IMG/VR virus record: IMGVR_UViG_3300034061_002274
Span: 1-22,400 of that record
Source: a virus
Length of the DNA stretch: 22,400 bases
Reading direction: 5' to 3' (one strand)
The position numbers and the translations under genes were made by a program. The notes under the pieces were generated by a model. The model was not told where the DNA came from, ran no database searches, and was given only the letters and a program-made list of their open reading frames with translations. How positions within the stretch are numbered: position 1 is the stretch's first letter; each line of letters starts with the position of its first letter. Positions 2,651 through 22,169 of the stretch are shown here, in pieces.

Positions 2651-2819
2651 AAGAATTTTCACAAAAGAACTTATTATAAGACACATTTATGATATTGAAA
2701 GATATCTAAGTGTTGATGCGGCATTTTTGAGAGATGATTTCTCAAGAGATGTTTATAGAATGCATAATGAGGGAAAATCAAAAGAAGAAATAATAAAATA
2801 CATAAATGAAAACAAATGA
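2637..2819 (+). CDS. Small hypothetical protein, 60 aa
   Basis: A 60-residue protein starting MGFNKRIFTKELIIRHIYD and ending KSKEEIIKYINENK, predicted helical and highly charged. Its stop overlaps the glutamine synthetase start as ATGA at 2816-2819, so the two are probably translationally coupled. A small regulator or partner of the synthetase is possible but not shown. No known family recognised. Confidence 0.65.
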   Translation: MGFNKRIFTKELIIRHIYDIERYLSVDAAFLRDDFSRDVYRMHNEGKSKEEIIKYINENK

Positions 2820-3940
2820 AAATTAAGTTAGAGTATGTTTGGCTTGATGGATACAAACCAGAACCAAACCTTAGAAGTAAAGTTAAAATTGTTGAAAGTG
2901 AAGTTCCTATGGAATTAAAAGATATTCCGGTATGGAATTTTGATGGATCATCCACTTCTCAAGCGGAAACAGGTAATTCGGATCGTCTTTTAAAACCTGT
3001 TAGACAATATACAACCCATGGATTCCCATTCATAAATGATACTGTGTATGTGTTATGTGAAGTATTAAATCCTGATGGTACACCACACGAATCAAATAAA
3101 AGATCTCAGATTGGAGATAACTTTGAAGATCTTTGGTTTGGTTTTGAACAAGAATACTTTATTCGTGAAGAAATTAACGGAAACATTTTAGGACATAAAA
3201 GAAACATTCTTAAAGGTCAGGGTGAATATTATTGTGGTGTGGGTCATAATGTTGTTGGTCGTGATTTTGTTGAAGAACATTTAGAAATGTGTTTAAACTA
3301 CGGAATTGATATTACCGGTATAAATGCTGAAGTTGCTTTAGGCCAGTGGGAATATCAAGTATTTTCAAAAGGAAAACATAAAGGAGGAGATGATCTCTGG
3401 ATGACTCGTTACTTCTTATTTAAGATGGGGGAAAAATACGGATATCATATTGAACTACATCCAAAACCATTAACTCACGGAGAATGGAATGGATCAGGAC
3501 TCCACACAAATTTTTCAACAGATATGATGAGAAACGAGGGGAATGAGAAATATTTTATGGCTTTGTTTAATGCATTTGAATCAAGACACCAAGATCATAT
3601 TAAAGCGTATGGGTCCAACAACAACCTTCGTTTAACTGGTGAGTATGAAACTCAATCAATTGATAAGTTCAGTTGGGGTGTGTCTGATCGAGGAGCGTCA
3701 ATTAGAGTTCCACAAGATACCGCAAAAGAATGGAAAGGTTATGTTGAAGATCGTAGACCTGGATCAAACGCGGATCCATACAAAATTATTCGTGAGATTG
3801 TTAAATCATTAGACACCACTAAACAAATCTATGAAATGAAAGATATAATGACTAGATTTGTTGATATGGATGGTTTAAGTGGTAAGTACAATGCCATATC
3901 AAATGAAGAATTATTAAAAGAATATAGAGAGGAGGAATAA
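2816..3940 (+). CDS. glnA: Glutamine synthetase, type II (eukaryote-like)
   Basis: Full-length 374-residue glutamine synthetase, which makes glutamine from glutamate, ammonia and ATP. The N-terminal beta-grasp part carries WNFDGSSTSQA (40-50). The catalytic domain shows the metal and glutamate ligands in FGFEQEYF (E111, E113) and NAEVALGQWE (E172, E179). It also has HPKP (215-218), NGSGLHTN (225-232), RLTGEYET (272-279), SWGVSDRGASIRVP (286-299) and EDRRPGSNADPY (311-322). This pattern and the length match type II enzymes rather than the roughly 470-residue type I enzyme with its adenylylation site. All key residues appear present, so it is likely active. It sits in an overlapping operon with DUF3310 and RmlB-like genes. 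It may feed glutamine to nucleotide synthesis during infection; this role is inferred. The enzyme is unusual for a phage. Confidence 0.95.
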   Translation: MKIKLEYVWLDGYKPEPNLRSKVKIVESEVPMELKDIPVWNFDGSSTSQAETGNSDRLLKPVRQYTTHGFPFINDTVYVLCEVLNPDGTPHESNKRSQIGDNFEDLWFGFEQEYFIREEINGNILGHKRNILKGQGEYYCGVGHNVVGRDFVEEHLEMCLNYGIDITGINAEVALGQWEYQVFSKGKHKGGDDLWMTRYFLFKMGEKYGYHIELHPKPLTHGEWNGSGLHTNFSTDMMRNEGNEKYFMALFNAFESRHQDHIKAYGSNNNLRLTGEYETQSIDKFSWGVSDRGASIRVPQDTAKEWKGYVEDRRPGSNADPYKIIREIVKSLDTTKQIYEMKDIMTRFVDMDGLSGKYNAISNEELLKEYREEE

Positions 3941-7431: not shown

Positions 7432-7890
7432 ATGACAACTACAAAAACCAACACAATTATCACAGTTAATGAAGGAACAATGGCTGGTGACGTATTCTAC
7501 GGATCTTTTAGTACAATCGTTAAAAACAAGGTACATAAGGTACTAGTTACTAATCATCTTAAAGATGAGAATCAAGAATATGAATTCCGTATCGCGGGAA
7601 AATGTAGAGCAGGGTTTATTAGTATCCACGATACTAAAGGAACACCTTCTAGTGTTATTCGTGGGTATAAGAAAAATGTATTAGTTAACATCCAAATGAA
7701 AAATGAGTTTGGTCATTGGATGAATGTTTATACTACTAAAGGTGGTAAGTGGTTTTCAATAGATAAAGCATTCTTGGAAACATTAACTGTTGGGACTATG
7801 AGAGAATCATTCCCTGATATGTGTGACATGAATATTTGGACCCGAATGGGAGCAAAAACTTGGGCTGATAAAGCGTTTAGTCAAAATTAA
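7432..7890 (+). CDS. Hypothetical protein, 152 aa
   Basis: 152 residues starting MTTTKTNTIITVNEG. It contains predicted beta-rich segments (AGKCRAGFISIHDTKG, HWMNVYTTKGGKWFSID) and a C-terminus with several Trp and Met. No signal peptide, membrane segment or recognised catalytic motif. It is the first gene behind a consensus host-type promoter and is followed by a strong terminator, so it is probably a single-gene, highly and early expressed unit. Function unknown. Confidence 0.75.
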   Translation: MTTTKTNTIITVNEGTMAGDVFYGSFSTIVKNKVHKVLVTNHLKDENQEYEFRIAGKCRAGFISIHDTKGTPSSVIRGYKKNVLVNIQMKNEFGHWMNVYTTKGGKWFSIDKAFLETLTVGTMRESFPDMCDMNIWTRMGAKTWADKAFSQN

Positions 7891-10050: not shown

Positions 10051-10078
10051 AAGGGAGGGGTTAACCTTCCCTTTTTTT
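10051..10078. terminator. Terminator between convergent genes
   Basis: AAGGGAGGG (10051-10059) pairs with CCTTCCCTT (10065-10073), loop GTTAA, followed by seven T on the + strand. It covers the stop codon of the minus-strand sigma gene, so it may work in both directions. Confidence 0.8.
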
Positions 10079-10621
10079 ATTTAGTTTTTCTAAATAAGAT
10101 TTAACATTTGCTTTTGCTTTAAATAAATTTGATTTTGAGGTCCCATCACTAATTCCTAATTCATCGGCAATTTCTTGGTGAGACATATTTTCAAAATAAT
10201 ACATATTAAAAATTCTTTTATATGATGGTGATAAACTTTCCATCGCATCTTTAATATCTGACATAGAAAAAATGGGTTCTTCATTTGGTATATCCTCAAG
10301 ACCTAAATCTTCATAACCAAAATCAACATCTTTTCTTTTTGGAGATCTTTTTTCTTTTCTTAATTCATCAATAATTGTATTTTTTATAATACGTTGAATC
10401 CAACCTTCAAGGCTACCTGAACCATCGTACATAGACATTTTTTGGTGAACTTTAATAAACCCTAATTGACAAAAATCATTTGCCTTTTCTATATCACCAT
10501 TTGCATATCTTAAACAAATTTGTTTAAATAGTTTTGGGTATAATCTTTTATATTCAAGATCAAAATTAAAACCTTCATTTAATAGGTGTTGATATTGTAA
10601 CTCAGTCAAGATAATTTTCAT
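10061..10621 (-). CDS. ECF-like sigma-70 family factor
   Basis: 186 residues. Region 2 spans about 25-90 (ending GSLEGWIQRIIKNTIIDELR), followed by a basic linker KEKRSPKRK and an acidic linker. Region 4 lies at about 125-178 (SLSPSYKRIFNMYYFENM, then the helix-turn-helix MSHQEIADELGISDGTSKSN). The layout is that of extracytoplasmic-function factors common in Bacteroidota. Residues 1-16, MKIILTELQYQHLLNE, are an extension before region 2 that matches the start of the 12680 gene and ends in L-N-E-G, resembling a T4-type head propeptide. It probably redirects host polymerase to middle or late phage promoters, and might be delivered from the virion (inference). It is encoded opposite to most neighbours. 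Confidence 0.9.
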   Translation of the reverse strand: MKIILTELQYQHLLNEGFNFDLEYKRLYPKLFKQICLRYANGDIEKANDFCQLGFIKVHQKMSMYDGSGSLEGWIQRIIKNTIIDELRKEKRSPKRKDVDFGYEDLGLEDIPNEEPIFSMSDIKDAMESLSPSYKRIFNMYYFENMSHQEIADELGISDGTSKSNLFKAKANVKSYLEKLNKKREG

Positions 10622-10668
10622 ACATATAAATAGTTGTTTATTAAAAAAAAATTTTCTATATTTTGATT

Positions 10669-11070
10669 ATGGAAAAAATATTATATATTGTTCGTGGAAT
10701 TCCAGGATCCGGTAAATCCACATTTGCCAAATCTTTAGGTGGTACTCACTTTGAAACTGATATGTTTTTTATGAAAGACGGTGAGTATAAATTTGATATG
10801 TTTAAACTTAAAGAGGCTCATAAATGGTGCCAGGATAGTGTTTATAGTGCAATGCTATTAAATCATACTGCGTTATTAAACAACGTAATTGTTGTTTCAA
10901 ACACATTCACTCAAGAATGGGAAATGAAACCATATTTTGAAATGGCGGAATATTTTGAATATAAAATTTTTTCCATAATTGTGGAAAACAGGCACGGTGG
11001 TATTAACGAACATAATGTACCTGAAGAAACATTAACCTCAATGAGAAATCGGTTTGAAATAAATTTGTAG
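10669..11070 (+). CDS. P-loop kinase, PNK / N4BP2L1-like
   Basis: 133 residues from the ATG at 10669 (an in-frame TTG at 10663 is less likely). The Walker A motif GIPGSGKST is at 10-18. FETDMFFM, KLKEAHKWCQD and VVSNTFTQEWEM follow, then PEETLTSMRNRF near the end. This pattern belongs to small AAA_33-type nucleic-acid or nucleotide kinases related to the kinase domain of polynucleotide kinase and to N4BP2L1. With a phosphoesterase and an RNA ligase nearby, a 5'-OH RNA kinase role in RNA repair is plausible. No phosphatase domain is fused to it. Confidence 0.82.
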   Translation: MEKILYIVRGIPGSGKSTFAKSLGGTHFETDMFFMKDGEYKFDMFKLKEAHKWCQDSVYSAMLLNHTALLNNVIVVSNTFTQEWEMKPYFEMAEYFEYKIFSIIVENRHGGINEHNVPEETLTSMRNRFEINL

Positions 11071-11072
11071 TT

Positions 11073-11987
11073 ATGAGTAGATTAGATAAATTAAAAGAAC
11101 AACATCCTGAATTAAACATTACAATTATTGATCTTATTGGTATGATAGATCCTACCGATACTTACAAGTATTCGGAGTTTCTAATTAAAATTTTGAAAAA
11201 TTGGTATGATAATATGGACATACGATATGGAATTGGGGTTGATCTTTTTGGTGATGAGAATGTAGAGACCTTAAATGAGTTTGAAAAACATTGTAAGGCA
11301 AAAAGAATTGAAAAAAACGATATTAGTCAACATACCACCTTTATAACTTTACAAAGTGAGGTTAATAAGGCTAAAGAAATTCTTAGATTGAAAGAGTTAG
11401 AAAAACAAACCAAAAAATTACTTGAACACGGAGAATGGTTGGTTATGATACCATTAAGTTATGAAGCGGCGAAGTTATATGGGGCAAATACTAAATGGTG
11501 TATAACTGAATTAAAATATTGGAATAACTATGTTGAGAATTATAAAATTATTTATGTGATCAATAGAAGTACGGATGTTAAATACGCTATCTCTAGAGAT
11601 AAAACGGATAATAAAGATTTAAAAGCGTGGTTGTCTGATGATAGTGAGACAAGTCCATTACTATTAAATATACCTCAGGAAATATGGTCGGTGGTAATAC
11701 CTGAATTACAAAAAGAAGAATCAATATGGGATTTACTACCAGATAATAATAAGATTATTCCACATAATTTGGGTTCGGATAACATCCTTGATAGAGTGAG
11801 AAATTTATTAATCAGCAATAGTACGGGCACAACAAATTTGACCGGAGGTTATATGGGTGACATAAATACTGATTTCCGCACTGACGCATATAAAACTTAC
11901 AGTACATATGGTACATATGGAGATGATTTTGAAAAGTATTTAAGAGAATATATGTATACGTCAGATGAATCAATTGATTTACCTTAA
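11073..11987 (+). CDS. YGAxTKWC-motif protein, copy 1
   Basis: 304 residues, starting two bases after the kinase stop. It is paralogous to the protein at 16933: both begin with a short helix then NITIIDLIGMIDPT (here) or a similar stretch, both have an NDIS segment near residue 82, and both share PLSYEAAKLYGANTKWC (127-143 here) followed by a strand pair ending YVINRSTDVKYAIS. The conserved Lys-Trp-Cys is the most invariant part and could be an active site. The C-terminus is Tyr/Thr/Gly-rich (TYSTYGTYG) and ends DLP, like its paralogue. The TKWC motif recurs in phage hypothetical proteins; its biochemistry is not known to me. Confidence 0.8.
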   Translation: MSRLDKLKEQHPELNITIIDLIGMIDPTDTYKYSEFLIKILKNWYDNMDIRYGIGVDLFGDENVETLNEFEKHCKAKRIEKNDISQHTTFITLQSEVNKAKEILRLKELEKQTKKLLEHGEWLVMIPLSYEAAKLYGANTKWCITELKYWNNYVENYKIIYVINRSTDVKYAISRDKTDNKDLKAWLSDDSETSPLLLNIPQEIWSVVIPELQKEESIWDLLPDNNKIIPHNLGSDNILDRVRNLLISNSTGTTNLTGGYMGDINTDFRTDAYKTYSTYGTYGDDFEKYLREYMYTSDESIDLP

Positions 11988-11998
11988 ATAAAAAGAAT

Positions 11999-12652
11999 AT
12001 GAAATTTGATAAAATATTAACAACAGGTAGAGTGTGGGTCACATCGGATCCACATTACAACCATAAAAACATTTGTAGAGGGGTAACGAATTGGAGAACC
12101 CAAGATGGTGAGATTCCTATTAATAGTACAAGAGATTTTCACACAATAGATCTAATGAATAATGTTTTAGTGGATAACATAAACTCAAAAGTTGGACAGA
12201 ACGACACATTAATTATATTGGGTGATGTTGCGTTCGGTGGTTTTGAAAGTATTAGAATTTTCTTGGATCGTTTGGTGTGTAAGAATATTCATTTAGTTAT
12301 GGGTAATCATGATCAACACATAAGAAACAATAGAGATAACATCAAAGATATGTTTTTATCTGTGAGCGATTACCTCCAAGTTAATATTGACGGTGCCGAT
12401 TTTGTTATGACACATTATCCATTTGAAAGTTGGAATGGTCTTAATAAAGGTGTTATACACCTTCACGGACACGTTCACTTACCTGCAAGTAAAAAGTGGG
12501 GTAAAGGTAAACGATTAGATGTTGGTGTTGATGGTAACAATCTATCACCATATAGTATAACTGAAATTGTACATATGATGGATAAACGAGATATCGTTCC
12601 TGAAATGGAAGGTGATCACCATTTAGATGATTTAATTGGGGTTATTGGATAA
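11999..12652 (+). CDS. Calcineurin-like metallophosphoesterase
   Basis: 217 residues with all metal-binding motifs in order: SDPHYNH (16-22), GDVAFGG (75-81), GNHDQH (102-107), THYPFESW (138-145) and HGHVH (156-160). This is a complete binuclear metallophosphatase of the phage and bacterial calcineurin-like family. Candidate substrates include 2',3'-cyclic or 3'-phosphate RNA ends and nucleotides. The kinase 0.9 kb upstream and the ligase downstream favour an RNA-end-processing role, which is inferred from context. No signal peptide. Confidence 0.9.
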   Translation: MKFDKILTTGRVWVTSDPHYNHKNICRGVTNWRTQDGEIPINSTRDFHTIDLMNNVLVDNINSKVGQNDTLIILGDVAFGGFESIRIFLDRLVCKNIHLVMGNHDQHIRNNRDNIKDMFLSVSDYLQVNIDGADFVMTHYPFESWNGLNKGVIHLHGHVHLPASKKWGKGKRLDVGVDGNNLSPYSITEIVHMMDKRDIVPEMEGDHHLDDLIGVIG

Positions 12653-12679
12653 TTTAATATCCTCAATATATTTATTAGT

Positions 12680-13918
12680 ATGAAAATTATTATAACTGAA
12701 AGTCAATGTAGAATTATTAATGAGGCGTTAGGTGTTCCTGACAATATTCTTGATGCCGCAGAAAAACTATTTGAGATAGTATCTAAAGATATTCAAACCA
12801 TTAATACCAAACAAGAAGAATATAATTTTGAGGGGGATTTAGATATTGAGTTAGGGTATAATAAAAAAATAATTATTGATCATTATGAGTTATCGGTTGA
12901 GGTAAAAGAATTTGATGAATACAATGGTGAACCGGATGTTCTATCAATGGGTATGGGTCAAACATTTAGGTTTGATAGAAAAATTATGATGAAAAAAGTT
13001 AAACCATCAACGAATGCCGCTTTAGTAATAACATTTGCGGTTTCACCATATTGGGAACCTAACCAGTTATATGAAACTTTAATAAAAAACAAGAGTGAAC
13101 ATTTATCTTCACTAGCGCATGAACTAAAACATAAGTACGATAAACAAGCGAAACAAACTGATTTAATCGGTAGAGATGTAAAATATAGTGCAACACAAAA
13201 AATCTCTACATTTGGAATACCTGTGATAGATAAACAATTTTTTAGGTATATGTACTATACTTCTATTGCTGAAAATTTAGTAAGACCAACTGAAATTGCA
13301 TCTGGACTTAAAAGTGAAAATATAACAAAATCTCAATTCAGGGAATTTTTACAAAACAATAGAGTTTATAAAGAATTAATTGAAATTAAAAATTTTACAT
13401 ACGAAAAACTTATTGAAGGTTTGTATGAAAGGATGGACAGAGTGGATGCATTACTTAACCATATTGGAGAAGATACGGATGAAATGACGGATCAAGAAAA
13501 AGTTGAAAGAGTACTAGAACTTGTATTTATAAATCTTGCAAATATAAAAATTGAAATATTTGATGAAATGGTTAGTACTGAGAACGATATGTTAAAAAGT
13601 TTTTTTAGACAAATGGTGGGTAATGTACCTTCATTTATGGAAGATGATGAAGAAAAAAACGTGGATAAAGTAAGGAGAAAAATTATAAATAGTATTGTTA
13701 AATATGAAAAAGACCCCTTAAGATTCTTCCAAGACGAGTGCGAAAAATTTAATTACATTACAACAAAAATGTTGAAAAAAATTGGTAAACTTTATGCTAT
13801 GGCAAAAGATGATGAACCGGTTAATGAATCTATCATTAATTGGGAACTTCATCAGAAGTTAATGGAAAAAAAGTATGGAAAAAGACCAATACACAAAAAA
13901 ATTTCTTACTTAAAGTAA
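12680..13918 (+). CDS. Putative HExxH zinc metallopeptidase
   Basis: 412 residues. Residues 1-16, MKIIITESQCRIINEA, form the propeptide-like motif also seen on the sigma factor, ending I-N-E-A. A HELKH zinc-protease motif is at 147-151 in SSLAHELKHKYDK. A glutamate in ENLVRPTEIASG (E198 or E205), about 50 to 55 residues further on, could be the third ligand of a gluzincin-type site. The second half is helical and charged, without membrane segments. A head-packaged protease acting on host proteins, or a maturation enzyme, is possible; activity is not shown. It lacks a signal peptide and obvious family markers beyond HExxH. Confidence 0.65.
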   Translation: MKIIITESQCRIINEALGVPDNILDAAEKLFEIVSKDIQTINTKQEEYNFEGDLDIELGYNKKIIIDHYELSVEVKEFDEYNGEPDVLSMGMGQTFRFDRKIMMKKVKPSTNAALVITFAVSPYWEPNQLYETLIKNKSEHLSSLAHELKHKYDKQAKQTDLIGRDVKYSATQKISTFGIPVIDKQFFRYMYYTSIAENLVRPTEIASGLKSENITKSQFREFLQNNRVYKELIEIKNFTYEKLIEGLYERMDRVDALLNHIGEDTDEMTDQEKVERVLELVFINLANIKIEIFDEMVSTENDMLKSFFRQMVGNVPSFMEDDEEKNVDKVRRKIINSIVKYEKDPLRFFQDECEKFNYITTKMLKKIGKLYAMAKDDEPVNESIINWELHQKLMEKKYGKRPIHKKISYLK

Positions 13919-13938
13919 ATTAATCAAAATTTTTTTAT

Positions 13939-13946
13939 TATCTTTG
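13939..13946 (+). promoter_or_regulatory. Bacteroidota-type -7 element
   Basis: TATCTTTG matches TAnnTTTG and is identical to the element at 8747. The -33 TTTG is not present at the right distance, so strength is uncertain. The next ATG is at 13954, close enough that the transcript would have almost no leader. Confidence 0.5.
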
Positions 13947-13953
13947 TTCTTAT

Positions 13954-14133
13954 ATGAAAAAACCATGTAAGGAATGTCCTCATTTTATCAAAAATCATCA
14001 CAATGATATGATTGTTAGTTTTGCCGAAAGAACCGGTAAAAAACATAATTGTCATATGACGGAAGGAAAAAAAGATTTGTGGAATGTAACGGATAAGAAA
14101 CTTGAATGTTATGGTAGTAGAAAGGACAGTTAA
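13954..14133 (+). CDS. Small Cys-rich protein, DUF6283-like, 59 aa
   Basis: 59 residues starting MKKPCKECPHF, then CHMTEGKKDLW and ECYGSRKDS at the end. CxxCP followed by an isolated Cys-His and a final C-x-G match small phage and bacterial proteins of the DUF6283 type, probably a metal-binding knuckle. It overlaps the next gene by 23 bases. It is the first gene of a probable unit running to the RNA ligase. Confidence 0.65.
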   Translation: MKKPCKECPHFIKNHHNDMIVSFAERTGKKHNCHMTEGKKDLWNVTDKKLECYGSRKDS

Positions 14134-14392
14134 GAAGAAATATATCATTGTGTTTTTAAGTGCTTCGGTTCTTGAAATTGGGAGTACTTTTTACATTAGT
14201 GTGGTCTCAGATAAGGATTATCTTGGTATGATGTTTTTTGCATTTATTGGGCCATTTCTATCATTACCATTTGTTGGTTTTATGGTTGAATCAAAAACTT
14301 GGAAAGAAAGATTAAAACTTGCTTTATGGTCAGGTTTTGGTTATTTGATTGGTTCATTAATAACTATTATATTTTTTGAAATATTAAAATGA
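14111..14392 (+). CDS. Small membrane protein, 93 aa
   Basis: 93 residues from the ATG at 14111 (an in-frame TTG at 14102 is possible). A basic start (ERTVKKK) is followed by three hydrophobic segments at about 13-31, 40-60 and 70-90, separated by SDKDY and ESKTWKERLK. It is likely an inner-membrane protein. It overlaps both neighbours (23 bases and 4 bases). No family recognised. Confidence 0.7.
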   Translation: MVVERTVKKKYIIVFLSASVLEIGSTFYISVVSDKDYLGMMFFAFIGPFLSLPFVGFMVESKTWKERLKLALWSGFGYLIGSLITIIFFEILK

Positions 14393-14751
14393 AAAAAAAA
14401 GAAACAAAATTTGGAACCTATATAGATATGGAAACAAAAAGTAACTCAGAAATAACCGGAGATAAAATCACGGTATTCGTAGAAAGATTAAAAAAGATTG
14501 GTATTGAAGTTAAACTTGTGGGTAACTATCCTTGGGTTTATATTGATGAAATCTGTGGTATTAAAGTAAAAGAGAAGTTCGCGGGTAATCACGGGTTTAC
14601 TATAATCTTTCTTCCTGTAAGAACTGACACACCGCCAAGCGATTTTACCGATATTGGGGAGACATTCAAATTGATAAGAAAATACAGTAGACAAGCTCTA
14701 TTGGTAAAACTTATGAAAGATGATGAAGAAAGTGGAATGTATGAAAATTAA
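14389..14751 (+). CDS. Hypothetical protein, 120 aa
   Basis: 120 residues starting MKKKETKFGTYIDME, coupled by an ATGA overlap to the membrane protein. It has strand-like stretches (KVLVGNYPWVYIDE-type region, NHGFTIIFLPV) followed by a helix (TFKLIRKYSRQALLVKLMKDD). No catalytic motif recognised. Probably a small soluble alpha/beta protein of the same transcription unit as the RNA repair genes. Confidence 0.72.
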   Translation: MKKKETKFGTYIDMETKSNSEITGDKITVFVERLKKIGIEVKLVGNYPWVYIDEICGIKVKEKFAGNHGFTIIFLPVRTDTPPSDFTDIGETFKLIRKYSRQALLVKLMKDDEESGMYEN

Positions 14752-14762
14752 AAAAAATAAAA

Positions 14763-15206
14763 ATGGAAAAACAAAAATATAGAATTTATTTGGATGATGT
14801 AAGAACACCGGTTAGTCCTAACAATGCATTGGTGGATGGTATTCCTGAGTGGACTGTGGTTCGTTCTTACGACGAGTTCGTACAAAAGATAAACTCAATT
14901 GGTTTGGAGAACATTGAGTTAATCTCATTAGATCACGACTTGGGTGACAGTGCTATGTCAGAATGGTTATATGGTGTTACTAAAAACTATTCAATTAACT
15001 ACGATAACATTACCGAAAAAACCGGTATGGATTGTACTAAATGGTTAGTGAATCAATGGTTAGATGGTAAACCTGTTGTTGAAGTTGTAGTTCATTCCGC
15101 AAACGCTGTTGGTAGTGCAAATATGATGGGTTACATTAACAATTACCGACACCTCAATCGTTTACCACAAAATTGTGTGAGAGTACAAATAGAACATACA
15201 GTATAA
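14763..15206 (+). CDS. Cyclic-phosphate-processing receiver domain (cREC)
   Basis: 147 residues with the receiver-like signature of the cREC family: RIYLDDVRTP (7-16), VVRSYDEF (32-39), ISLDHDLGD (54-62), TGMDCTKWLV (87-96) and VHSANAVGSANM (110-121). The paired aspartates (D11, D12) and the second acidic motif probably bind metal. The family was predicted from its gene neighbourhoods in RNA-repair systems to process cyclic phosphate RNA ends; direct enzyme data are limited. Here it stands two genes before an RNA ligase, which agrees with that proposal. Confidence 0.85.
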   Translation: MEKQKYRIYLDDVRTPVSPNNALVDGIPEWTVVRSYDEFVQKINSIGLENIELISLDHDLGDSAMSEWLYGVTKNYSINYDNITEKTGMDCTKWLVNQWLDGKPVVEVVVHSANAVGSANMMGYINNYRHLNRLPQNCVRVQIEHTV

Positions 15207-15216
15207 AAATAAAGTT

Positions 15217-15477
15217 ATGGAATTAGAAAAATTTGAACAAGCAAAAAAAGTAAAAGAAAACCTTGATAGGTTGGAAAGACAGAAGTATAAATTGGAATCT
15301 GCGCTTAAATCTTGTGGTTTGAGTGTCACGATTGGATTTACACACTCTGGAGGATTCAACAGAAAAGGTGAGGTCAGTTTCTATAACAAAGAGATTATTA
15401 AAGAAATGATCTCTAAAGAACTTGATAGAGTGAATGAAGAAATTGATTTAGTAAAAAAAGAATTTGAAAACGTATAA
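15217..15477 (+). CDS. Small coiled-coil protein, 86 aa
   Basis: 86 residues with a Lys/Glu-rich helix at the start (KFEQAKKVKENLDRLERQ) and another at the end, separated by a short strand segment (LSVTIGFTHSGGF). Probably a helical hairpin. It lies between cREC and the RNA ligase with gaps of 10 and 3 bases. No function can be assigned; an accessory subunit to these enzymes is a guess. Confidence 0.7.
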   Translation: MELEKFEQAKKVKENLDRLERQKYKLESALKSCGLSVTIGFTHSGGFNRKGEVSFYNKEIIKEMISKELDRVNEEIDLVKKEFENV

Positions 15478-15480
15478 AAA

Positions 15481-16614
15481 ATGGAAAATTTAAATAGTGT
15501 ATGTTATGTTGGTGTGATCGGAGAGATATTACCAATAGATGGAGCGGATAACATTGAACTTGCATTGGTTGGTGGTTGGCAAGCCATTACTAAGAAAGGT
15601 GAATATAGTGTTGGTGATAAGGTTGTTGTTGCAACTACCGATGCGGTAATCCCTGTTGAATTATCTGATTTAATGGGCGTAACTAATTACCTAAGAAAAG
15701 GTCAAAGAGTTCGCACCGTTAAACTTCGTAAAGTTTACTCTGAGTGTTTGTTAATACCATTCAAATACTTGGCACCAAGGTCTTTGGAGAACAATGTAAA
15801 TGAAGGTCACGACATGATGGAACTGTTAGGTATCACTAAATATGAACCACCAGTTAAGATGGTTGAGATGAGTGTTGGTGGAAGAAAATTCAAATACCAC
15901 CAAAACCCGAACTTCCACATTTACTACAAATTCCCAAATATGAAGAACGTACCTGATATGTTCAATGAGGAGGATGAAGTATGTATCACTCGTAAGTTAC
16001 ACGGAACCAATGCTCGTTACGGTATTGTGAGAAAGAAAAAACTTTCAATCCTTGATAAGATTAAAGGGTGGTTTGGTAATCAATGGGTTGGTTACGAATA
16101 CGTTTATGGATCCCACAACGTTGAGAAGGGATCTGACTCTCAAGGTTTTTATGCAACTGATGTGTGGAAAACAGTTGCGGAAAAATATGATATCCGTAAA
16201 AAACTTTGGGATCACGTTAAAGATACTTTTGATCCTAATGATGTTGGTTCAGGATTTATCATCTATGGTGAAATCTATGGACACGGAATACAAAAGAATT
16301 ACGACTATGGTTTAACTGAAATCCGTTTTGCGGGATTTGACGTTGAGGTTGATGGATCTTATGTTGATAACATTTACCAATCAACTCATTTTAAATGTTT
16401 AGGTTTAGAAGAAGTTGAAACTTTATATTCAGGTCTTTGGTCAAAAGAAGAACAAGATAAATATGTGTTTAATAACAACATTCAAGGAACTAAAGTTCCT
16501 CACGAAGGTATTGTTGTAAAATGTTTATCTGGTAATCGTCATAAGATTGGAAAAGTAATCAACCCTGATTATTTAATTTACGGTGAAAAAAATAACGTAG
16601 GTGACTCCCATTAA
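15481..16614 (+). CDS. RNA ligase, DraRnl (Rnl5)-like
   Basis: 377 residues. An N-terminal OB-like domain (EILPIDGADNIELALVGGW, 15-33) precedes the nucleotidyltransferase domain. The adenylylated lysine is probably K172 in ITRKLHGTNARYG (motif I, KxHG). Motif III is IIYGEIYG (260-267), motif IIIa FAGFDVEV (283-290), motif IV HEGIVVK (341-347) and motif V around HKIGKV (354-359). Domain order matches DraRnl-type ligases, which join 3'-OH and 5'-phosphate RNA ends and favour repair of nicked RNA. It is last in the unit that includes cREC and is followed by a strong terminator that begins inside the gene. Confidence 0.9.
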   Translation: MENLNSVCYVGVIGEILPIDGADNIELALVGGWQAITKKGEYSVGDKVVVATTDAVIPVELSDLMGVTNYLRKGQRVRTVKLRKVYSECLLIPFKYLAPRSLENNVNEGHDMMELLGITKYEPPVKMVEMSVGGRKFKYHQNPNFHIYYKFPNMKNVPDMFNEEDEVCITRKLHGTNARYGIVRKKKLSILDKIKGWFGNQWVGYEYVYGSHNVEKGSDSQGFYATDVWKTVAEKYDIRKKLWDHVKDTFDPNDVGSGFIIYGEIYGHGIQKNYDYGLTEIRFAGFDVEVDGSYVDNIYQSTHFKCLGLEEVETLYSGLWSKEEQDKYVFNNNIQGTKVPHEGIVVKCLSGNRHKIGKVINPDYLIYGEKNNVGDSH

Positions 16615-16932: not shown

Positions 16933-18033
16933 ATGGGAATAAAACATTTAATTCAGGAAAATCCTAATATGGATATAAATTTGGTTCGTTTAATATCTAA
17001 ACTTGATCCAAGCAAAACAAATAAACTAACACCATTTATGGTAAAAGTTTTTAAAAAAAGAATGGTTGATTTTGAAAAAGAAATCACTCAAGAGGAAGGT
17101 ATTTATGGATTAAGATATGAATATGTTAATAGTAAGATGAGTGATGCAAGTGGTTTTGAAAAATTAATATTAACTTGGGTTATAGATCAATTTAGAGCGG
17201 AAAATATTGAAATCTTAAGAGAATTTAATGAGGTTTTGGATAAAGGTTTAGTGGATCAAAATGACATATCTAAATACGAAAATTTTGAAGAGATTACAAA
17301 TCAATTGTCGGTTGCTAGAACAAAAGATTTATTGAAGAAATCTAGAAAAGAAATCTCTGTTGTCTATGAAGATGATGAAATTATGATGCTTAAACCATTA
17401 TCTTTTGAGGCATCTTTGAAATATGGTGCTGGAACAAAATGGTGTACAGCAATGAAAAATGAACCTGAATATTTTTATAGATACTCTAAAAATGGTATTT
17501 TAATCTATCTTATTAATAAAGAAACCGGTAGAAAATTTGGGTGTCATTCGGAAAGATATAATGATAATAGAGTTCAAATCTTTAATGAGATTGATCAGGT
17601 TATTGATTCTTTCCATATGGGTTTACCATATGAAAAATTAACTATCTTAATGGATTTAATGGATTCAGAAAAATATGGTGTTAATTCAGAGTTATTTAGT
17701 GAAGAGGAAAAAAGTAAGTATGGGTTAAGAGTGAATAAATATTCGGTAGATGAGGTGATGGATATGCCAACTGAAGAAATGCCAGTGAATGAAGAATTAC
17801 CAAGATTGATGCCAAGATTGAACAGACGAATCCCAATTACGGATCAAGAAATGAGAATAATGGAAGACCCAATGGTAGAAGAGCAAGGACCGATAGAAAT
17901 TGAATACAATATGGCTGTACCTGATAGAATGTTAATGAGAGAGATTCAAAAAGAAATTGATTCCATTATGGTTCTTGATCGTGCGGGAGCTTTCGCTCAT
18001 CTTGAAAATGAAGAGGGTGACACATTACCATGA
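16933..18033 (+). CDS. YGAxTKWC-motif protein, copy 2
   Basis: 366 residues, paralogue of the 11073 protein. Shared parts: the first 45 residues (a helix, then NLVRLISKLDPS), QNDIS near 110, PLSFEASLKYGAGTKWC (155-171) and a strand pair ILIYLINKETGRKFG (189-203). An aromatic FYRYSKNG follows the Cys motif, as commonly seen in such phage proteins. The C-terminal third is distinct: Met/Pro/Arg-rich (PRLMPRLNRRIPI) and acidic, ending in TLP. The retained core and divergent tails suggest one enzymatic or binding core with different partners. Function unknown. Confidence 0.8.
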   Translation: MGIKHLIQENPNMDINLVRLISKLDPSKTNKLTPFMVKVFKKRMVDFEKEITQEEGIYGLRYEYVNSKMSDASGFEKLILTWVIDQFRAENIEILREFNEVLDKGLVDQNDISKYENFEEITNQLSVARTKDLLKKSRKEISVVYEDDEIMMLKPLSFEASLKYGAGTKWCTAMKNEPEYFYRYSKNGILIYLINKETGRKFGCHSERYNDNRVQIFNEIDQVIDSFHMGLPYEKLTILMDLMDSEKYGVNSELFSEEEKSKYGLRVNKYSVDEVMDMPTEEMPVNEELPRLMPRLNRRIPITDQEMRIMEDPMVEEQGPIEIEYNMAVPDRMLMREIQKEIDSIMVLDRAGAFAHLENEEGDTLP

Positions 18034-18677: not shown

Positions 18678-20534
18678 ATGGGAAAAATAATTGGAATTGA
18701 CTTAGGTACAACAAACTCTTGTGTGGCCGTTATGGAAGGGAATGAACCGGTAGTTATTACAAATAACGAAGGTAAACGAACAACGCCATCTGTAATCGGA
18801 TTCATTAAAGATGGTGAAAGAAAGATTGGGGATCCGGCTAAACGACAAGCGGTAACCAATCCTGAAAAAACCGTACATTCAATTAAACGATTTATGGGAA
18901 CAAGTTTTACTGAATCTAAAAATGAGGTAAAGAAAGTTCCTTATAAAGTTGTAAAAGGAGATGGTGGATCACCAAGAGTGGATATTGATAAACGACAGTA
19001 TTCTCCGCAGGAACTTTCCGCAATGGTTTTACAAAAAATGAAACAAACTGCTGAGGATTATTTGGGTGAGACGGTTACTGAGGCGGTTATTACGGTACCA
19101 GCGTATTTTAATGATGCTCAACGACAGGCAACCAAAGAAGCGGGTGAGATTGCGGGTTTGGAAGTAAAACGTATCATTAATGAGCCAACAGCGGCGGCAT
19201 TAGCATATGGTTTAGATAAAATGTCTAAAGATATGGTAGTGGTTGTGTTTGACTGTGGTGGTGGTACACACGATGTTTCTATTCTTGAATTAGGTGATGG
19301 TGTATTTGAAGTATTGTCTACTGATGGTGATACTCACTTAGGTGGTGATGACTTTGATCAGGTTATTATTGAATGGTTAGCAAATGAATTCAAAGATGAG
19401 AATGGAATTGATGTGACCAAGGATCCGATGGCGTTACAACGTTTACGAGAAGCGGCAGAAAAGGCAAAAGTTGAATTATCTTCAACCTCATCAACGGAAA
19501 TTAATTTACCGTATTTGATGCCGGTAGATGGGATGCCAAAACACTTGGTTAGAACTTTATCAAAATCTAAATTTGAACAACTGGCAGATTCATTAATCAA
19601 ACGAACTATTGAACCTTGTAAGACAGCGTTGAAAAATGCTAAGATGGATGTGTCTGATGTTGATGAAATTATCTTGGTTGGAGGTACAACAAGAATTCCG
19701 GCAATTCAAGAAGCGGTTAAACAATTCTTTGGTAAGGAACCATCTAAAGGTGTTAATCCTGATGAGGTAGTTGCTTTAGGTGCGGCGATCCAAGGTGGTG
19801 TACTTGCTGGTGATGTTAAAGATGTCTTATTATTAGATGTGACTCCATTATCTTTAGGTATTGAAACTATGGGTGGAGTTATGACTAAATTGATTGATGC
19901 TAACACCACGATCCCAACTAAAAAATCTCAGGTGTTCTCAACGGCAGTAGATAATCAACCAACAGTTGAGATCCACGTACTTCAGGGAGAACGAGCAATG
20001 GCAAAAGATAATAAAACCATTGGTAAGTTCAATTTAGATGGTGTTCCACCAGCGATGAGAGGTGTTCCACAAATTGAGGTTACGTTTGATATTGATGCGA
20101 ATGGTATTATCAATGTTTCTGCAATGGATAAAGGTACAAACAAACAACAAACAATTCGTATCGAAGCGTCCTCAGGTTTATCAAAAGAAGAGATTGAGAA
20201 AATGAAACAAGAAGCTGAGTTAAATGCCGAACAGGATAAAAAACTCAGAGAAGATGCTGAAGTTCTAAACACGGCTGATGGTACAATCTTCCAAACTGAG
20301 AAGTCAATCAAAGATTTGGAAGATAAATTAACTGAAGAACAAAAGAGTGAACTTGATGGATTACTTGGAACGTTAAAAGAATCTTACGCAAAAAAAGACA
20401 TTGAGAAGATTAATCAAGATATTGAAAATCTTAATAGTCAGTTCCACCATATTAGTCAATCATTGTACGAACAAACTACAACTGAAGAAGGTAATGATGC
20501 TCCGTCTGACGTTGAATTTGAAGAAGTACTTTAA
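18678..20534 (+). CDS. dnaK: Hsp70 chaperone DnaK, full length
   Basis: 618 residues with the whole DnaK layout. The ATPase domain runs 1-382 ([14 protein letters not shown] at the start, [16 protein letters not shown] near 138-153, [13 protein letters not shown], phosphate-2 motif DCGGGTHD at 192-199). Next come the linker VLLLDVTP (383-390), a substrate-binding domain with HVLQGER and [11 protein letters not shown], and a helical lid. The tail ends DVEFEEVL, close to Bacteroidota cellular DnaK. The phosphate-2 motif differs from the usual DLGGGTFD by Leu to Cys and Phe to His, while the catalytic Thr (T197) is kept. No DnaJ or GrpE is visible, so it likely works with host co-chaperones to fold phage proteins. 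Probably acquired from a host. Confidence 0.96.
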
Positions 20535-21584: not shown

Positions 21585-22169
21585 ATGAAAGTATTATTTT
21601 TAGATCATGATGGTGTAATTTGTCTCTCCAATAATTGGGGTGGACGAACAAAGAAATGGGCGAAATATCGTTCTGAAAATCCTGAATCCTCCTCAAATCT
21701 AAAAGAGGGTCCGGTGTCTGTACGATTTGATGACTTTGATCAAAAGGCAATTAAGATCCTTAATGAGATTGTTGAAGAGACAGGATGTGAAATTGTGGTA
21801 AGTTCAGATTGGAAGCTACACGCAACTCTTGAAGAACTTGGTGAATATTATGAATTACATGGGATAAGTAAAAAACCAATTGCGTTAACACCAAATATAC
21901 AAGATTGTAAAGTTCATGGTAATTTATTTATATGGTCACCAAGATGGGATTTAGAACAAACACGAACTATTGAAATCAGACAATATCTTCAGGATCATCC
22001 TGAGGTTACACATTGGGTTTCTGTTGATGATTTAAATATGGGTAAAATTGGTGAGGTTTGGAAAGATGTATGGGCGATAGATAATTTTGTTTTAACACCA
22101 AGATCAAATGAGGGAATTAAACAAAGTGGTGTTAAAGAAAAAATATTAAAGTTTTTGAAGGATGATTAA
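21585..22169 (+). CDS. HAD-family protein, RNA-repair HAD type
   Basis: 194 residues. Motif I LFLDHDGV (4-11) supplies the nucleophile D7 and the acid-base D9. Motif II is IVVSSDWK (70-77) and motif IV is WVSVDDLN (144-151). A cap-like insertion (NWGGRTKKWAKYRS) follows motif I. The LDxDGV, VVSSxW and DD spacing resembles the HAD domain family reported in Swiss-army-knife RNA-repair proteins (PF18143), where it would remove terminal phosphates. A general nucleotide phosphatase is the alternative. Other RNA-end enzymes in this window favour the first. Confidence 0.8.
   Translation: MKVLFLDHDGVICLSNNWGGRTKKWAKYRSENPESSSNLKEGPVSVRFDDFDQKAIKILNEIVEETGCEIVVSSDWKLHATLEELGEYYELHGISKKPIALTPNIQDCKVHGNLFIWSPRWDLEQTRTIEIRQYLQDHPEVTHWVSVDDLNMGKIGEVWKDVWAIDNFVLTPRSNEGIKQSGVKEKILKFLKDD

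Follow-up and report, generated by a model that had tools for sequence, protein, structure and literature searches.

In bacteriophage T4, ligases of the Rnl1 class mend breaks in the anticodon loop and accompany Pnkp, in which a kinase is fused to a HAD phosphatase. The Clostridium thermocellum systems, Pnkp (CthPnkp) and Pnkp1-Rnl-Hen1, combine kinase, metallophosphoesterase (MPE) and ligase parts. Ligases of the Rnl5 type, namely DraRnl of Deinococcus radiodurans (DRB0094) and NgrRnl of Naegleria, join an OB fold to a nucleotidyltransferase and seal duplex nicks with 3'-OH and 5'-PO4 ends. We analyzed a stretch of 22,400 nucleotides of viral DNA, here called the window (positions 1 to 22,400 of IMG/VR virus record IMGVR_UViG_3300034061_002274; GC content, about 31%), that carries genes for a P-loop kinase, an MPE, a cREC protein, an Rnl5-type RNA ligase and a HAD phosphatase. 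In a clade of large phages, these genes probably constitute a split set for healing and sealing RNA ends; the enzymatic activities, the order of the steps, the origin of the damage in host defense, the RNA that is mended and the host are all inferred.

Compared with T4, the window shares the kinase fold and the HAD phosphatase and RNA ligase steps, but its kinase and HAD genes lie 10 kb apart, its ligase is of the Rnl5 type, and an MPE and a cREC protein are added. The C. thermocellum systems likewise share the kinase fold and the kinase, MPE and ligase parts, but the window genes are separate and the window MPE is nearest to Aquifex aq_1665 and not to the CthPnkp phosphatase. The window ligase has the domain plan of DraRnl and NgrRnl, but its 121 bits fall short of the 151-bit DRB0094 equivalog cut-off. 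In the available text of Iyer et al. (2021; PMC7824862), jumbo-phage RNA-repair sets are predicted to be an answer to RNase-based immunity and have the composition seen here, with a kinase, a cRec protein, a stand-alone "Swiss army knife" (SAK) HAD or calcineurin-like phosphatase, and an ATP-dependent RNA ligase. Most of the ligases in those sets are Rnl1 or Rnl2, with rare divergent ones, whereas the window's clade, which is uncultured, showed only the Rnl5/DRB0094 type, beside a kinase-MPE pair that stays constant. A neighborhood with cREC, an RNA ligase and homologs of the kinase and MPE also occurs in V5-type phages (Escherichia phage HMD-6; V5 itself in the accessible part of PMC9503650); HMD-6 differs in its Rnl1-type ligase (PF09511) and SIR2 gene, and no HAD_SAK is annotated in its stretch. 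For phage Adele, the available text of PMC12846349 (2025) describes a kinase without the 3'-phosphatase domain of T4 beside an RNA ligase and proposes that two ligases take part in tRNA repair; the splitting of steps is therefore not new. Pseudomonas phages Adele and K5 both have a stand-alone kinase adjoining an RNA ligase, and the K5 kinase is a relative of the window kinase; K5 differs in having an Rnl1-type ligase. The MPE is a candidate for the phosphatase missing from Adele-type kinases, and the set suggests such a partner for a widespread stand-alone phage kinase.

The composition of the set was thus already predicted by Iyer et al., as far as the accessible sections of that paper go, and what is new is Rnl5 as the joining enzyme and the apparent exchange of ligase partners. 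The literature that we searched, which took in few subscription papers and several sources in part, held no report of an Rnl5-based phage set or of a constant kinase-MPE healing unit. RNA cleavage is widespread among antiphage effectors, and a phage's survival of a given defense may depend on which kinds of break it is able to mend.

The five genes of the set are as follows.
10669 to 11070, plus strand: P-loop kinase, polynucleotide-kinase-like, 133 residues (Pfam AAA_33, phrog_2071)
11999 to 12652, plus strand: calcineurin-like metallophosphoesterase (Pfam Metallophos, phrog_547)
14763 to 15206, plus strand: cREC protein, an optional member (Pfam cREC_REC, phrog_1479)
15481 to 16614, plus strand: Rnl5/DRB0094-type ATP-dependent RNA ligase (Pfam PHA02142 OB-fold and RNA_ligase, phrog_968)
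21585 to 22169, plus strand: HAD "Swiss army knife RNA repair" phosphatase, candidate 3'-phosphatase (Pfam HAD_SAK_2, phrog_1818)

A sequence-only reading of the window had named these genes with their starts and families. All five proved to be open frames on the plus strand (the program that called open reading frames [ORFs] starts the kinase at a TTG at 10663), and all five family calls stood, with catalytic residues conserved and scores above the curated Pfam cut-offs (bits, with cut-offs in parentheses: AAA_33, 34.1 (27); Metallophos, 33.4 (21.5); cREC_REC, 75.6 (27); RNA_ligase, 51.2 (27); PHA02142 OB-fold, 49.9 (27); HAD_SAK_2, 75.9 (27.5)). The conserved residues of all five proteins presumably correspond to named catalytic motifs. 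NCBIfam gave only matches far under its cut-offs for the kinase and MPE and none for the cREC and HAD proteins. The expected matches to AAA_33, cREC and PF18143 were above cut-off, while the one to DRB0094 (TIGR02306) fell below its equivalog threshold. The proposed cluster within 6 kb holds for the kinase, MPE, cREC and ligase genes, whereas the HAD gene lies outside it at 21.6 kb and other genes are interspersed. The proposal that the steps are split over separate proteins was borne out, since the 133-residue kinase stands alone and the HAD, MPE and ligase are separate genes.

The composition of the set is beyond chance, as judged by a function-blind ranking of the kinase's neighbors and by retention counts in the window's own clade. 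Relatives of the kinase occur in 615 of 50,697 phage records. A kinase-profile scan gave at least 80 loci; of a sample of 80, we dropped 5 that lay on contigs of the ligase-selected set described below and 32 others in which one flank was shorter than 7 kb or the kinase call was unusable. This left 43 loci, a few of which look like members of the window's clade (for example, L091, with a ligase 7.6 kb off that was counted as none). When open frames within 7.5 kb of the kinase were clustered blind to function, the commonest neighbor families were the MPE (24 loci), the Rnl1-type ligase, so labeled by a profile whose seeds came from four cultured phages (24 loci), and cREC (10 loci), followed by an unnamed family in 8 loci and several in 7, 6 or 5. 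Pfam PF09511 confirmed Rnl1 only in HMD-6, 2L372X, K5, Athena and L084, and Pfam confirmed the Rnl5 plan in L109. The MPE lay within 3 kb of the kinase in 23 of the 43 loci, any RNA ligase within 7 kb in 29, and both in 21; after the kinases were thinned to below 60% identity (n = 19), these counts were 9, 12 and 9. Gene orders vary (MPE-kinase-ligase versus kinase-MPE-..-ligase), and the link among the three is thus more than inherited order. This association outside the clade is stronger evidence than synteny within it.

Four of five cultured phages picked for look-up show such sets. HMD-6 has Rnl1-cREC-SIR2 divergent from kinase-MPE, with a pyrophosphohydrolase also there; phage 2L372X has MPE-Rnl1-kinase contiguously; and K5 and Athena have an Rnl1-kinase pair with an MPE nearby. 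In K5 and Athena (L165 and L166), genes for a ribose-phosphate pyrophosphokinase and a nicotinamide phosphoribosyltransferase lie near the Rnl1-kinase pair. We take these two to be an NAD-restoring counterdefense, and the neighborhood is perhaps a counterdefense island.

For the window's own clade, viral contigs were scanned with the ligase, and the best 80 of 103 matches were kept (71 to 100% identity; contigs of up to 304 kb). The counts cover loci that extend as far as the position concerned; they accept a match anywhere in the locus, include near-copies and ignore kinship. The kinase was kept in 55 of 59 loci, the MPE in 58 of 63 and the HAD in 45 of 48; cREC was present in 36 of the 68 loci reaching its position. 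Other genes were variable, among them DnaK (11/55), a sigma factor (7/57) and the gene at 7432 (4/52). The usual order is kinase-MPE-12680-14389-(cREC)-(15217)-ligase-HAD, where numbers denote genes by their starts in the window. The kinase and MPE genes are on the same strand in all 60 loci having both and at most 60 bases apart in 35 of these, and they overlap by 4 bases in 5 of the 14 loci with ends listed. In one rearranged locus (L061), which has three HAD matches, the kinase and MPE have moved jointly to a place downstream of the ligase. The predicted co-occurrence of the set in related phages was thus upheld by retention and gene order, and it extends to less related loci and four cultured phages.

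Eight clade contigs of 86 to 304 kb, chosen from the longer ones and possibly incomplete, so that absences are provisional, all have the kinase and MPE, a HAD (HAD_SAK_2) and an RNA ligase; six have cREC. Families for all three steps, namely a kinase, a 3'-end phosphatase/cyclic phosphodiesterase and an ATP-dependent RNA ligase, therefore co-occur per phage. Each of the eight has one PF09414 ligase match, and Rnl5 is the sole RNA ligase found in them. Rnl1 was found in none of the eight, by a model that does match 5 of 10 other contigs, and RlaP, 2H (PF13563), RtcB and KptA were each found in 0 of 8. The host of the clade is probably a member of the Bacteroidota, given a relative of the MPE in a Flavobacterium phage and a relative of the ligase in a Bacteroidetes bin. 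The latter, from an uncultured bacterium, is the one locus with a ligase relative in bacterial or archaeal genomes and is probably phage DNA; it also has the kinase and MPE, with cREC and HAD absent within its 17 kb.

The ligase partner of the kinase changes outside the clade. Ten contigs of the kinase set, picked among the longer ones, had Rnl1 alone (four), the Rnl5 OB-fold alone (three), both (one) or neither (two); because one contig has both kinds, the alternation of Rnl1 and Rnl5 is usual, not absolute. With 35 rows that had no ligase or both set aside, the Rnl1/Rnl5 label changed 9 times by parsimony on an 80-row kinase tree versus 23 times with shuffled labels, and well supported branches force three changes. 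Columns in the alignment are few, and 36 of the 77 inner branches are open; long branches meet, and the label describes the neighborhood only. These results suggest a constant kinase-MPE pair whose partner varies between Rnl1 and Rnl5, the joining enzyme being swappable. We tentatively extend this to a two-protein split Pnkp, in which the MPE would supply the missing 3'-phosphatase/cyclic phosphodiesterase and the pair would have undergone several exchanges between Rnl1, for loop breaks, and Rnl5, for duplex nicks. In some loci this unit would be read from overlapping genes. If the extension is true, ligase exchange would retune which host ribonuclease a phage undoes. The occurrence of one kinase-MPE pair with two kinds of ligase is a natural experiment.

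The product of the gene at 10669 looks like a candidate 5'-OH polynucleotide kinase of the T4 Pnk type. Residues G15, K16 and D31 are invariant in 30 sequences. A profile of 30 relatives matched T4 PNK first among solved structures (1ly1, 7.5e-9), then a second T4 PNK match (1.8e-8), a Rhizopus kinase, CthPnkp and Pnkp1 kinases. Comparison of the predicted model (mean predicted local distance difference test [pLDDT] score, 90.5) by fold also put T4 Pnkp first (Z, 15.0; root mean square deviation, 2.4 over 129 residues) and CthPnkp second (Z, 14.1), with PSTK (Z, 13.7) and PFKFB (Z, 12.4) trailing T4 Pnkp by just 1 to 3 Z units. The protein thus has the P-loop and conserved Asp of the T4 Pnk type and has polynucleotide kinases as its closest solved relatives. 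It has no phosphatase domain, in contrast to the T4 kinase-HAD fusion (the HAD is the separate gene at 21585), and the three domains of CthPnkp correspond to three separate genes.

The MPE is a candidate 3'-end phosphatase or cyclic phosphodiesterase; the evidence for a role in RNA is its pairing with the kinase. Residues D17, H19, D76, N103, H104, H139, H158 and H160 are invariant in 15 sequences and are presumably the metal motifs D-x-H, GD, GNH, H and GHxH. Both the model (pLDDT, 91.4) and the sequence profile point to Aquifex aq_1665, a protein of unknown function, and naming by fold yielded nothing past aq_1665. A CthPnkp-like MPE was not supported, since profile and fold alike choose aq_1665 as the nearest solved relative. 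The best cultured relative, at 47.6% identity, is in a Flavobacterium phage. An Asp-His-His stretch near the C terminus (residues 206 to 208; window positions 12614 to 12622), which we assume lies outside the usual MPE motifs, is kept by most relatives, with H207 and H208 conserved in 90% or more of 28 sequences, and also occurs in phage 2L372X.

The cREC protein matches PF20274, with D11, D12, D57, H111, S112 and N114 invariant in 11 sequences, and its profile matched none of the solved structures. In the accessible parts of PMC7824862 and PMC9503650, cREC is predicted to open 2',3'-cyclic phosphates. We looked for another enzyme in its slot in 30 clade loci that lack cREC and have the 14389 gene upstream of the ligase and rejected this idea: the slot was empty (14 to 157 bases) in 20 loci and held open frames in 10, in none of which a phosphoesterase was recognized by eye. 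In L045 and L052, cREC and 15217 are together at another place. The HAD matches PF18143 with a DxD start and a later DD (D7, D9, D148 and D149 invariant in 10 sequences), and its profile gave one chance-level match only among solved structures. Burroughs and Aravind (2016) are reportedly one source of the SAK-HAD idea.

The ligase has a PHA02142 OB-fold at residues 13 to 93 and an RNA_ligase domain at residues 165 to 359. Its OB part (residues 9 to 126) aligns with NgrRnl (E, 1.1e-14; with a profile, 7e-18); the second domain gave no significant alignment with NgrRnl. Residues K172, H174, G175, E264, E342, G343, K347 and K358 are invariant in 15 sequences, and we take them to be the motifs KxHG (with its lysine), YGE, EGxxVK and KVI..Y. 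TIGR02306 (RNA_lig_DRB0094) spans the whole protein (E, 3.7e-35) at 121.4 bits, below the equivalog cut-off of 151.15, and we therefore call the ligase Rnl5-type and do not file it as a DRB0094 equivalog.

The predicted chemistry follows from the protein families. Cuts by metal-independent ribonucleases leave a 2',3'-cyclic phosphate and a 5'-OH. The cyclic phosphate would be opened by cREC, where present, or by the MPE; the remaining phosphate would be removed by the HAD and/or the MPE to leave a 3'-OH; the kinase would phosphorylate the 5'-OH; and the Rnl5 ligase would join the healed ends. The damage may come from RNA-cutting defenses of the bacterial host.

Several observations weigh against reading these genes as one repair set. 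Other genes (11073, 12680, 14102, 14389 and 15217) are interspersed among them, and 11073 separates the kinase from the MPE in the window. Genes of unknown function are equally well kept in the clade (12680 in 55/64 loci, 14389 in 64/70 and 8771 in 43/54), so that clade synteny does not set the repair genes apart. Outside the clade, Rnl5 (6 loci) and HAD (5 loci) do not rise above other neighbor families of 5 to 8 loci; 14 of the 43 kinase loci have no ligase within 7 kb, and only 4 have a HAD within that distance. Both AAA_33 kinases and MPEs belong to broad superfamilies. Among solved structures, the kinase sequence by itself gave no significant match (best, Pnkp1 at 0.089), and Foldseek puts CthPnkp first on the kinase model and a PFKFB-type enzyme third. 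Two of the eight long clade contigs have neither cREC nor a 2H enzyme, and no substitute was recognized in the cREC slot. The fifth cultured phage, Flavobacterium phage immuto, has an MPE and cREC with no kinase or ligase match in a 24.6-kb stretch. Three of the neighboring genes outside the set are these.
11073 to 11987, plus strand: protein of unknown function between kinase and MPE, related to 16933
12680 to 13918, plus strand: conserved neighbor with a HELKH stretch and an N-terminal MKIIITESQ
14389 to 14751, plus strand: conserved neighbor of unknown function (phrog_38683)

One way to account for these observations is that the genes are independent accessories whose substrates are nucleotides or signal molecules for the MPE and HAD and nucleotides or other ends for the kinase, their proximity being an inherited order. 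The interspersed genes, the equal conservation of genes of unknown function, the kinship of the MPE with aq_1665 and the immuto stretch all suit this account. We consider it unlikely, because the MPE, an RNA ligase and cREC were the top neighbors in 43 loci picked by the kinase only, and in differing orders. A set for DNA end repair or phage DNA metabolism is less credible still. Polynucleotide kinases of the same fold can bind DNA (a T4 PNK-DNA structure is among the matches), and DNA ligase genes lie in the same neighborhoods of 2L372X, HMD-6 and K5, but the ligase that usually accompanies the kinase comes from one or the other of two RNA ligase families, and the available text of PMC7824862 ties cREC and SAK-HAD to RNA-end processing.

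If the genes are indeed a split RNA repair set, two kinds of target come into question. The sequence-only reading favored tRNA cut in the anticodon loop by host nucleases such as PrrC or RloC. Repair of PrrC-like cuts, as in T4, is a serious possibility that falls somewhat short of probable. In other phages, homologs of the kinase and MPE are found with Rnl1-type ligases, which in T4 mend anticodon-loop breaks. A single island of 24 tRNA genes on the related 304-kb contig, distant from the repair genes, suggests that tRNA supply and translation matter to the clade. Against it, the clade contigs have Rnl5 and no Rnl1, and Rnl5 enzymes seal duplex nicks. PrrC-type breaks are thus a possible target, while RloC-type breaks are not favored: RloC is described as excising the wobble nucleotide (PMC2610378, in the part available), and RlaP, predicted to restore such a lost nucleotide (PMC7824862, likewise), was found in none of the eight clade contigs, so that the loss would be unmendable. 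The other target would be nicks in structured RNA, such as rRNA, tRNA stems or hybrid RNA, in which case having Rnl5 instead of Rnl1 would change what kind of break the phage can seal. The duplex-nick sealing of Rnl5 enzymes points toward such breaks, and the NgrRnl match of the OB part, the span of TIGR02306, the finding of a second RNA ligase in 0 of 8 clade contigs and the variation of the ligase partner along the kinase tree all argue in this direction. The ligase, however, scores under the DRB0094 equivalog cut-off, and the substrate of its branch is presumptive; we regard nicks in structured RNA as a possible target, slightly less likely than PrrC-like cuts.

Other features of the window and its relatives concern neighbors of the set. 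The proteins at 11073 to 11987 and 16933 to 18033, inside and beside the set, are related and share a G-A-x-T-K-W-C stretch; they have no Pfam or NCBIfam family above cut-off, and at least two copies of this type occur in 20 of the 44 clade loci having one. The 12680 protein has no family in Pfam, PHROG or NCBIfam searches. It shares an N-terminal peptide, M-K-I-I-I-T-E-S-Q-(Y/L)..(L/I)xE, with otherwise unrelated proteins that include a sigma factor and several unknowns. In the window this peptide is carried by the genes at 10061 to 10621 (minus strand) and 12680 to 13918 (plus strand), and it recurs in L170, L110, L102, L086, L101 and other loci. The pattern [TS]E[SAL]Q lies within the first 20 residues of 46 of 4,433 distinct ORFs, at least 17 of these being relatives of 12680 (0.52 per 1,000 residues there versus 0.052 internally), and a stricter pattern occurs in just 2 of the 380 ORFs of the 304-kb contig. 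The (L/I)xE end presumably resembles T4 prohead-protease sites, and the peptide is a possible capsid-targeting signal for packaged, injected proteins.

In immuto (L162, 11944 to 14003), the MPE relative comes after a cluster of tRNA genes, and the cREC relative, annotated as hypothetical, lies about 1 kb downstream. Past the tRNA island of the 304-kb contig, ARAGORN calls a transfer-messenger RNA with the tag EKEQTLIIRG (L173, 178 to 580, minus strand), a call that is probably false. The window also encodes a glutamine synthetase at 2816 to 3940 (Gln-synt_C, 7.9e-17) and a full-length DnaK at 18678 to 20534 (HSP70, 1.9e-258).

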